This document shows positions 6,082 to 9,134 of a DNA stretch of 64,000 bases, in pieces. This stretch comes from Halobacteriovorax marinus (GTDB taxonomy: Bacteria; Bdellovibrionota; Bacteriovoracia; Bacteriovoracales; Bacteriovoracaceae). Location of the stretch: assembly GCA_002163155.1 (NCBI GenBank), contig MAAO01000008.1, forward strand, positions 124,001-188,000, given 5' to 3'. Made by a program: the position numbers and the translations under genes. The notes beneath the pieces were generated by a model. It was not told where the DNA came from and did no database searches. It saw only the letters and a program-made list of their open reading frames with translations. How positions within the stretch are numbered: position 1 is the stretch's first letter; every line of letters begins with the position of its first letter.

Positions 6082-6534
6082 TTAAGAAACCTTCTTCAAT
6101 CCCTGCAGAGCTAAGTTCATATTTTTAAGCCTCTTTGTTACCAATCTAGTAATGTTCAAAACAAGCAAAGAAAACACTTTAGGATTCTTATGATAGAACG
6201 AATAAAAATCTTCATATTTAATTATGAGAACATCTGCACTCTTCTTACAAATAATATTTGCAGTACGCTCAGTTTCATTAATGAGAACAAGCTCTCCAAA
6301 TATATCACCACTCTTTATAGTTGTAATATGGTGATTTTCGTTTCCATCAAAAACAGAAATATCAGCAACACCAGAAAGCATGATACAAATATCTGTACTC
6401 ACATCTCCCTGCTTTATGATGAGATCATCTGGCTCATACGATGCAACAAGACAATGCTTAACGATATTTTCTATTTCTGTGTCGTAAATTTCATAGAAAA
6501 GGCTACAACCTTTTACAAGACTAACCATTGACAT
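6082..6534 (-). CDS. Cyclic-nucleotide-binding-domain protein (stand-alone Crp-type sensor fold)
   Basis: This 150-residue protein is essentially one cNMP-binding beta-roll. It has the phosphate-binding-cassette pattern GDIFGELVLINETERTANI, in which the FGE and the Arg before Thr-Ala match residues that contact cyclic nucleotide phosphate in Crp-family proteins. There is no helix-turn-helix, so it is not a transcription factor of the usual kind. Its ATG follows immediately after the TAA of the MotA-like gene with no spacer, showing tight coupling. The inference is a cytoplasmic regulator that couples a nucleotide signal to the MotA/MotB-like channel. The ligand could be cAMP, cGMP or none. 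Confidence 0.85.
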   Translation of the reverse strand: MSMVSLVKGCSLFYEIYDTEIENIVKHCLVASYEPDDLIIKQGDVSTDICIMLSGVADISVFDGNENHHITTIKSGDIFGELVLINETERTANIICKKSADVLIIKYEDFYSFYHKNPKVFSLLVLNITRLVTKRLKNMNLALQGLKKVS

Positions 6535-7431
6535 TTATGAGGCCTTTTTTAATTGTTTATCAATCTGAGTTCGAATCTCCTTCACTTCTGAAATCAATTC
6601 AGGAATCGCTTGGTATAGACCTTGTTCAATATTCTGATGTCCATGAAAAGTTATCCAAATATTTTCAAAGCATTTTGATAATTTCTTAAAAGTTTTATTG
6701 CGAAGACCACGTACAGGTGCCAAAGTATTTAACATTGTCATAATCACAGAAAACAAAATACCTGCAATTGAAGTTTTCATGGCAAAGGTGACACTTAAAA
6801 CAAAATTAGTAAGTACATCACCTGACTTTTCTAAATCACTAAAGTCTATATTTGCAATTTCTGGTAGGGCCATACTAATACCTATAAATGTTCCAAAAAT
6901 TCCAAAGACAACGAAAATACTCGGTAAAATATCATTCAAACGTGAAATAGGAGCGATAGGTAGAATACCAAATATTTTAGTCCAGTTTTCATCTTGCTCT
7001 AATATTCTCTCAGTAAGCTCCGCATAGTTTGGAGGGTATTTAGACTGTAAAGTAGTAGATTCCAGAGCGATTGCATGAAAGAGTCCCTTTTCACCAGAGA
7101 TAAACTCTCTTAGAGAAACAACATTTTCAGAATTGTATTCACTCTTTCCTTTGTCTTTGCCTTTCTTAGTTCTACGCACTGAACGTGATGGAAGTTTATC
7201 TTTGATGGATGCTAATAACTCTTCAATATATTCAGGAATATCGACATTATCTCTCTCCTGTTTTTCTGAAAGGGACTTCTCAATCTCACTTACAAAAGAA
7301 GAAAAGTATCGATCCTCTCTCAAGCTTTTTCGATAATTTGACCAACGAAAGAGCAGACCAAACACCAACATTCCTCCCATAAACTCAATGAGATAATTAG
7401 ATAAAAAGTAAAGTACAATATTCATAGTCAT
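6535..7431 (-). CDS. MotA/TolQ/ExbB-like proton channel subunit
   Basis: A 298-residue membrane protein with an N-terminal helix (about 4-29) and two further helices at about 170-190 and 208-236. The motif LPSIFVVFGIFGTFIGI resembles the channel helix of MotA/TolQ/ExbB proteins, including ZorA of Zorya. Between helices 1 and 2 lies a cytoplasmic insert with a strongly basic patch around 86-95 (RRTKKGKDKGK). Expected role: forms a proton pathway with the MotB-like partner. Its ribosome site (TAGGA) overlaps the partner's stop codon, which lies 5 bp upstream, so the two are translationally coupled. It lacks a long coiled-coil tail and is not a typical flagellar MotA. Confidence 0.82.
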   Translation of the reverse strand: MTMNIVLYFLSNYLIEFMGGMLVFGLLFRWSNYRKSLREDRYFSSFVSEIEKSLSEKQERDNVDIPEYIEELLASIKDKLPSRSVRRTKKGKDKGKSEYNSENVVSLREFISGEKGLFHAIALESTTLQSKYPPNYAELTERILEQDENWTKIFGILPIAPISRLNDILPSIFVVFGIFGTFIGISMALPEIANIDFSDLEKSGDVLTNFVLSVTFAMKTSIAGILFSVIMTMLNTLAPVRGLRNKTFKKLSKCFENIWITFHGHQNIEQGLYQAIPELISEVKEIRTQIDKQLKKAS

Positions 7432-7436
7432 TTTTC

Positions 7437-9134
7437 CTAGTTTATATTTTCAACTTTATCCCAGATTCTTCTATCTTCTTTTAAGGTAAAACGAATTTCA
7501 ACTCTACGAGAACTAGTACAGTCAAATTTTCCGCAATCATCATGACTTGTTGAGGATGGCGCACGAGAGATAGGATCAGAAAAGGATCTACCTATTGCTG
7601 AAATTTTTTGTCTAAATTTTGATTTATTGTTAAATTGACCAAAGTCCTTACTGAAAATATATTTAACAATTTCTTTGGCTCGATTAGTACTCAATTCCAT
7701 ATTATAAATATAGGCCTCTTCATTTTCTAATCTATTAGGAGAGACAAACTCTTTCTTATATCGAGGGGATGCATGACCAATAATATTGACACACTCAATA
7801 TATTTATAAGTTTTTGGATCATTAAATATCGCTTCAACATATAGTGGAATTATTCTCTTTAAGGTGTTTTTAGCTTTTGTACTTAATTTAAAATCATTTC
7901 GTTTAAATTGAAACTCATCATCCATCTTTAAGGTCACACTTCCCGTTGCAGGATCTACCTTCACCTTCAGATTTTCATTTTGTAACTTAAGTGCAATATT
8001 CTGTCCTATTTTTGAACGTATATTGTTTCTAACACTAGCAATTCCCCTTGAGATTCTACGATTCTTCTCTTGAGCATCTGCAAGATTCGATCTTGCCTGA
8101 CTTAACTTCTTGGCCATTGAGCCACTTGAGTTCTTCATATTCTCTATTTGATTTTCTTGAGAATTATTCTTTGAATGCAATCCTTTTATTCCACTTTCTA
8201 ATTTTTGTATTTCAGAGTTTGACTGATTCACTTCATTTCTATATTTGTTGGATTCCATTTTAAGAGTGCTAAGCCTTCCTTTTAGATCTTGAATACTTTT
8301 AGACTTTATTTCGATTTCGTTCTTTAAATTTTCCGTGTAATTTTGAACATACTTCATTTTCTTGCTAATCTTAGACAACTCGATATCTCGATTATTTATT
8401 TTCTTAGAAAAAGTTTCAATTGACTGGTCTTTTTCTTTTATCTTAAGCGTTAAGCTAGAATTAACATTCTGTAATTGTCCATTCTCTTTCTCTTTACGTT
8501 CGAATGATTTCTTTATTTCTTTGACGGATTTCTCTGTATTCTTTACAGTTACTAATTGTGTTTTGTTTTCTTTCCTAAGTTCACTTACCTTATGTGCAAC
8601 TTTACTCTTCGCTTTAATAAGATCAATCTTCTCCCTCTTGAGCCTCGTGATCTCTTTGTGAAAAGACTCTATGTGAGTATTTAATTTTTTAAGTTCTTTA
8701 GATTGCCTATCAACAATTTCGTTTTTCTTAGTTAAATTCTTTTGAGTTGAATTTAGTGCGACCTGTGCCAGAGTTTGCTTATTAAGTGACTTTGCAACGA
8801 GAGTCTTGTGTTTTTTCATCTTTTTAGCAAACTTATTAATTTTTTTCATTTTATCATCAATAACTTTACTGAACTCTTGCATATCATTTATTTCATTTTG
8901 CATATTCACTAAGATTTTATTATTTTCGTTTTTATTTTTTTTAGATATGCTTCCTTGAATAAAAGCTTCTTTTTCTTTTTTTTCTTTTATAGCTGTCAAA
9001 GTACTCACACCACTTCTAAGTAGCGCAAAAACAAATAAAACAAGAAAGATAATCGCCATAGTGGTAAACATGTCACTATAGGAAGTCCATACTGATCCAT
9101 CTTCTTTGTAGTCATCATCATCATCATCATTCAT
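7437..9134 (-). CDS. MotB/OmpA-like protein with a very long periplasmic coiled coil
   Basis: This 565-residue protein starts with a cytoplasmic acidic tail (six Asp, encoded by a trinucleotide run) and a transmembrane helix (about 24-42). The helix begins with SYSDMFTTM; Asp21 aligns with the proton-carrying Asp of MotB. Residues about 50-375 are Lys/Glu/Asn-rich heptad-like sequence, predicted as a coiled coil. Residues about 400-555 form an OmpA-like peptidoglycan-binding domain with NMELSTNRAKEIV and RRVEIRF. Flagellar MotB has only a short linker here. The gene opens a tight three-gene operon with the MotA-like and cNMP-fold genes. The ribosome site AAGGAG precedes the ATG at 9134. The machine it powers is unknown. 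Confidence 0.85.
   Translation of the reverse strand: MNDDDDDDYKEDGSVWTSYSDMFTTMAIIFLVLFVFALLRSGVSTLTAIKEKKEKEAFIQGSISKKNKNENNKILVNMQNEINDMQEFSKVIDDKMKKINKFAKKMKKHKTLVAKSLNKQTLAQVALNSTQKNLTKKNEIVDRQSKELKKLNTHIESFHKEITRLKREKIDLIKAKSKVAHKVSELRKENKTQLVTVKNTEKSVKEIKKSFERKEKENGQLQNVNSSLTLKIKEKDQSIETFSKKINNRDIELSKISKKMKYVQNYTENLKNEIEIKSKSIQDLKGRLSTLKMESNKYRNEVNQSNSEIQKLESGIKGLHSKNNSQENQIENMKNSSGSMAKKLSQARSNLADAQEKNRRISRGIASVRNNIRSKIGQNIALKLQNENLKVKVDPATGSVTLKMDDEFQFKRNDFKLSTKAKNTLKRIIPLYVEAIFNDPKTYKYIECVNIIGHASPRYKKEFVSPNRLENEEAYIYNMELSTNRAKEIVKYIFSKDFGQFNNKSKFRQKISAIGRSFSDPISRAPSSTSHDDCGKFDCTSSRRVEIRFTLKEDRRIWDKVENIN

Follow-up and report, generated by a model that had tools for sequence, protein, structure and literature searches.

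Ion-driven 5:2 motors form a small set of well-studied machines. The question of whether this set has a further branch is raised by three adjacent genes in the window (i.e., the whole stretch of 64,000 nucleotides that was analysed, which is part of contig C9 in a 4.55-Mb genome), where a wall-binding subunit with a very long coiled coil (B) and a channel subunit (A) are accompanied by a small cyclic-nucleotide-binding (cNMP) protein. To answer it, it must be asked whether the genes belong together, to which known machines the subunits are closest, and what the third gene contributes.

The gene unit and its distribution

The spacing of 0-5 bp reported in an earlier reading made from the sequence only was confirmed, given that all three ORFs are intact on the minus strand, with a gap of 5 bp between B and A and of 0 bp between A and the cNMP gene (Table 1). 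The neighbours of the block in the window are solute-binding and transporter genes, and a scan for promoter and terminator signals at the block gave no more than was obtained from shuffled sequence.

By its relatives, the window belongs to the order Bacteriovoracales of the phylum Bdellovibrionota. When A was used as the query, relatives were found in 71 of the 129 genomes of the order and in 184 of the 369 genomes of the phylum. Among the 89 distinct A genes in the loci fetched around these relatives, 88 are directly preceded by B and 42 are followed by a cNMP gene, with a spacing of -38 to +43 bp; some loci stop at contig edges, where a missing third gene carries no weight. The neighbouring genes vary between loci and the B-A(-cNMP) unit is conserved, so that the block is kept as one in relatives, the lack of which the sequence-only reading had named as a refutation. 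A second copy of the block is found in the window genome, on contig C7 (L010), and its cNMP protein has 63% identity to its counterpart in the second copy of another genome, versus 38% to the first-copy protein of its own genome, which indicates that the three genes have been inherited together. The cNMP gene of one locus (L059, 7781-8275) points the other way, converging with A, but is still adjacent and intact.

Table 1. Positions in the window of the three genes and of the features discussed in the text
Feature	Position	Strand	Basis
B subunit, 565 aa	7437..9134	(-)	ORF; PADLOC ZorB1; AlphaFold/Foldseek ZorB 8vvn_B
B transmembrane helix, W16-x-S18-Y19-S20-D21-x-F23	9009..9089	(-)	Alignment A3
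B D21, expected ion-carrying Asp	9072-9074	(-)	Alignment A3; ZorB analogy
B coiled coil, ~residues 48-386 (about 320 residues)	7977..8993	(-)	Periodicity; AlphaFold helices
B OmpA-like peptidoglycan-binding domain, residues 392-565	7440..7961	(-)	Foldseek
B C534-x4-C539, probable disulfide	7518..7535	(-)	Cys conservation
A subunit, 298 aa; ion-channel subunit with three helices and no ZorA tail	6535..7431	(-)	ORF, ZorA profile and VIA
A cytoplasmic domain, ~residues 40-160	6952..7314	(-)	Clade-wise identity
A transmembrane helices 2-3, invariant T181 and S221	6697..6951	(-)	Alignment A1 columns
Stand-alone cyclic-nucleotide-binding protein, 150 aa	6082..6534	(-)	PF00027
Phosphate-binding cassette GDIFGELVLINETERTA	6259..6309	(-)	Alignment A2

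The channel and the wall-binding subunit

B is made up of a short N-terminus, a single transmembrane helix, the long coiled coil and the OmpA-like domain. It matches the PADLOC profile ZorB1 at 8.4e-39, and the best match of its AlphaFold model is ZorB (8vvn_B, E 4.5e-10), with Pfam scores for OmpA (22.6 bits) and MotB_plug (14.9 bits) that are below the curated cut-offs. The PRK09039-type peptidoglycan-binding proteins of NCBIfam (NF006543 and NF006542, with 350 and 627 positions) are also B-like, and their N-terminal or coil part gives a weak match to the window B (E 0.005-0.007, with cut-offs of 305 and 388 bits). The Asp21 that had been read as proton-carrying is present, and together with W16, S18, Y19, S20 and F23 it is invariant in alignment A3 (D21 in 23 aligned homologues); its expected role in ion transport is taken from D24/D21 of ZorB (PMC11890865).

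The OmpA-like domain proposed for B was recovered by Foldseek, with matches to the ZorB, YfiB, MotB and OmpA domains. In ZorB, H186/H141, S143, L199, R203 and R254 are needed for peptidoglycan binding and for defence, and these residues have their counterparts in H454, S456, L481, R485 and R544 of B. Both cysteines of the CX4C motif are present in 85 of 86 B homologues, which fits an oxidising periplasm and suggests a disulfide, and hence a periplasmic location of the C-terminal domain.

A scores 12.9 bits against the Pfam family MotA_ExbB (PF01618), which is below the cut-off of 22.9, but ZorA structures are found at 2e-7 with the family profile A1. The AlphaFold monomer (mean pLDDT 82) has three membrane helices, and ZorA is its best Foldseek match (probability 1.00, E 1.3e-3). 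In VIA, the Z scores are 11.1 for ZorA, about 10 for ExbB and TolQ and about 7 for the flagellar stators. Differences of up to 1 in Z count as ties, and Z is raised by long helices, so that sequence carries more weight than fold in placing A nearer to ZorA than to TolQ. At the expected ion path, the invariant T181 and S221 match the Ser/Thr ring described for ZorA (PMC11890865). The fold of A, these ion-path residues and the aspartate of B place the pair in the 5:2 motor superfamily (MotAB/TolQR/ExbBD/ZorAB). Of the earlier description of a MotA/TolQ-like channel, the TolQ half stands, as the TolQ/ExbB fold is close, and the MotA half does not, given that the nearest type is the three-helix one of ZorA, TolQ and ExbB and not the four-helix one of MotA. 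The name “MotA/MotB-like” is equally imprecise for the pair, both subunits being closest to ZorA and ZorB.

TolQ and ExbB are almost as close in fold to A as ZorA is, but A falls below the PF01618 cut-off in sequence, and TolR and ExbD are short proteins without an OmpA domain or a coil. Flagellar MotAB and PomAB share with the block the aspartate in the B helix and the OmpA-like wall-binding domain, but their fold match is weaker, and MotB has no long coil. Flagellar MotA has four helices with a torque interface. By its Pfam score, the three helices of its model and the low stator Z, A is not of the flagellar-stator type.

The best matches of both subunits, in sequence and in fold, are those of Zorya ZorA-ZorB (types I and II; PDB 8QYD, 8VVN, 8VVI; PMC11890865), with which the block shares the three-helix A subunit, the aspartate in the B helix (essential in ZorB) and an OmpA-like domain with the same peptidoglycan-binding residues. 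The long tail of ZorA lies in the cytoplasm, where it recruits a nuclease, and Zorya defence requires it (PMC11890865), whereas the A of the block has only about 50 residues after its last membrane helix. The long rod is instead on the periplasmic B, as the sequence-only reading had stated, and the block also differs from Zorya in the CX4C motif near the C-terminus of B, in a partner-specific cytoplasmic domain of A, in the gene order B-A-cNMP and in having no ZorC/D/E beside it. The scores are far from the curated Zorya cut-offs (30 bits versus 100 for NF033915, and 35 versus 400 for NF041788) and, with the ZorA tail absent and no ZorC/D/E found next to it, the block is not Zorya.

The coil of B had been put at about 325 residues, which agrees with the length found here, and its periodicity of 3.5 residues stands out at z = 12.9 over 60 shuffles (z = 5-32 over shuffles for the coils of the B family). 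It would span a nominal 47 nm if fully extended. The AlphaFold monomer has helices at 65-227 and 244-386, and its confidence is low at 215-250. An antiparallel hairpin was considered and rejected, given that the helix-breaking segments of 70 homologues show no concentration at mid-coil; the helix breaks are found near the OmpA end and not in the body, and the prolines almost only near that end. In the full-length B homologues, the coil varies from 251 to 1514 residues, i.e., 37-225 nm if extended, and this wide variation speaks against a rod cut for one fixed gap. The earlier idea of a rod that reaches the wall or a second envelope finds no direct support, as rods of about 250 to 1510 residues in the homologues of similar bacteria do not match any single distance.

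The longest B gene (L066, 10235-13144; 1758 aa) shows one mode by which such coils grow, since it contains tandem units of 63 and 186-189 bp, or 21 and 62-63 residues, which are near multiples of seven and keep the heptad register.

An ordinary periplasm is not deep enough to take a coil of 47 nm upright, nor the 225 nm that the coil reaches in one homologue, so that it would lie flat or fold, unless the topology differs from that indicated by homology. In the window B, the N-terminus is acidic and the membrane helix is followed by a basic stretch, so that the orientation would be reversed if charge alone decided; this acidic N-terminus on the cytoplasmic side sets it apart from most ZorB and MotB proteins. 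A reversed topology was nevertheless rejected, given that the N-termini of the relatives are positive and that the homology to ZorB and the CX4C motif both stand against it. The acidic N-terminus is encoded by a GAT run of six Asp codons at the start of the window B (9111-9128).

The third gene and its replacement in a sister clade

The third protein is, as had been read from the sequence, a cyclic-nucleotide-binding fold that stands alone, consisting of a PF00027 domain only (57.8 bits versus a cut-off of 27.5, E 1.1e-15). G80, E81 and R90 of its phosphate-binding cassette are invariant in 25 cNMP homologues (alignment A2), and its best PDB relatives are cGMP-dependent kinases. The threonine after the cassette arginine is of the type seen in cGMP sites; by these residues, both cGMP and cAMP are possible ligands. 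Two class III cyclase genes are present in the window genome. The proposal that a nucleotide gates the machine is made plausible by the conservation of the ligand-binding residues.

In a tree of the A subunits, which is a quick tree with long branches, the cNMP clade (47 rows, 43 of them with a cNMP gene) has an SH-aLRT support of 93, with 98 at an inner node, and is separate from a second clade, and both clades are separate from the long ZorA proteins and from TolQ/ExbB. This second clade is spread across Bdellovibrionota, and its third gene, in most members with enough sequence, encodes an FHA-domain protein of 733-1652 aa with a long coil of its own. The position of H454 in B is occupied by Phe in much of this clade. 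Within the two clades, identity in the cytoplasmic domain of A is 41% and 54%, and between them it is only 15%, versus 38% for the membrane core. Since this domain is kept within the clades and not between them, we infer a docking platform for the third protein, which would have changed together with the partner. Longer ZorA-like proteins of 458-669 aa from a few Bdellovibrionota genomes (L189, L190, L191 and L193) fall outside both clades. Two loci of the second clade (L151 and L157), in which no FHA gene accompanies B and A, are in bins labelled Gammaproteobacteria, by transfer or binning error.

Most Bdellovibrio genomes carry a single copy of the FHA version, and two complete ones have the gene order around it in common. 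Such a distribution is unlike that of a defence island and is consistent with a core role for this clade, argued from distribution and synteny only. One of these two genomes, with its sister B-A-FHA operon in L209 (6725-11617), is, we assume, that of B. bacteriovorus HD100, in which the operon lies at about 1,107,724-1,112,616. The trio lies near smc, which is Bd1158 (PMC11318664), and by counting ORFs from smc it may tentatively be assigned to about Bd1165-Bd1167. Bd1167 has been described as a crescentin-like gene with a coiled coil, the expression of which falls as predation begins (PMC2797640).

A probable motor anchored in the wall

Taken as a whole, the block probably encodes a peptidoglycan-anchored, ion-driven 5:2 motor of the ZorAB branch, with a periplasmic rod on B and control by the cNMP protein through A. 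By analogy with the known motors, five A subunits would surround the transmembrane helices of two B chains, which would continue into the periplasm as a long parallel coiled coil, and the paired OmpA-like domains at the end of this rod would hold the peptidoglycan. The flow of ions past Asp21 would turn A relative to the wall-tethered rod, and the cNMP protein, if bound to the cytoplasmic domain of A, may switch or couple the motor depending on the cyclic nucleotide; in the sister clade, the FHA protein with its own coil would take its place. Given that the long element is on the periplasmic B and that a signal receiver is present in the cytoplasm, a regulated envelope motor is to be expected, and the most likely use, still weakly supported, would be a load in envelope mechanics or surface force in a predatory cell, rather than DNA-directed defence.

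The kinship with ZorA and ZorB may also be read in another way, which we consider unlikely, i.e., as a divergent Zorya-type defence sensor, in which the B arm would sense wall damage by a phage or a competing predator, ions would flow, and the cNMP or FHA protein would relay the alarm to effectors encoded elsewhere. Its distribution would suit such a system, as the cNMP clade is patchy (38 of the 129 genomes of the order): some genomes have two copies, whereas their congeners lack it. The same patchiness speaks against the wall-anchored motor. Against the defence reading, the tail of ZorA is absent, nearly all Bdellovibrio have the sister FHA clade, and no match to the block was found in known plasmids and phages or in viral contigs. 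The absence of nuclease, helicase and ZorC/D/E genes from the block, already remarked from the sequence, extends to its surroundings, where no effector recurs consistently among 115 flanking proteins of 32 loci; taking two flanking proteins per side, the PADLOC matches listed (25 of 46 families) include none to ZorC/ZorD, ZorE or ZorF/G. A defence-island context was rejected as well, the PADLOC matches of the flanking proteins being scattered and generic.

A histidine kinase and a DEDDh exonuclease lie upstream of B in seven close relatives (L041-L045, L049 and L053). The exonuclease was considered as a hidden effector and rejected, given that its orthologue in the window genome is found away from the block, beside the same kinase (C1:1034344-1036912), and the arrangement therefore represents old synteny.

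It is improbable, on the other hand, that the block encodes a stator, for gliding or for a flagellum, to which the neighbouring cNMP gene is unrelated. The general 5:2 architecture and the several stator-like pairs in the same genome would agree with this, as would the FHA and coiled-coil proteins that are also part of the Myxococcus gliding machinery. However, the seven PF01618 loci found in the window genome do not include the A of the block, ZorA surpasses the flagellar stators in the fold comparison, and a cNMP gene kept in nearly the whole clade is not an unrelated neighbour. A passive, ion-gated tether or sensor between the inner membrane and the wall, whose coil would be a length-tolerant leash rather than a strut, would fit the widely varying length and the growth by in-register repeats, but we give it little credence, as a passive tether has no need of the invariant Asp21 and Ser/Thr ion path.

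The wall-anchored motor may be extended to a more ambitious and distinctly tentative proposition, i.e., an undescribed motor family that reverses the roles of ZorAB, with the force-bearing rod on the wall-anchored B and a swappable signal receiver in the cytoplasm. The rod, from tens to more than 200 nm long, would run along the periplasm or twist through it, and the signal received would be a cyclic nucleotide or a phosphothreonine. In the open-licence literature, no description of a Zorya-like motor with a cNMP or FHA partner was found, and an earlier one may exist elsewhere.

Finally, the block probably represents a conserved and apparently undescribed ion-driven membrane motor of Bdellovibrio-group predators that is kin to a phage-defence motor. 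A predator branch with its rod on the side opposite to that of Zorya, and with a signal partner, would widen the known roles of 5:2 motors, and the branch is present in the apparent model strain B. bacteriovorus HD100. It would also help to decide whether an envelope motor with a housekeeping role gave rise to Zorya or was derived from it. If the reversal of roles is true, the family would provide a new way of driving envelope movement in predatory bacteria.
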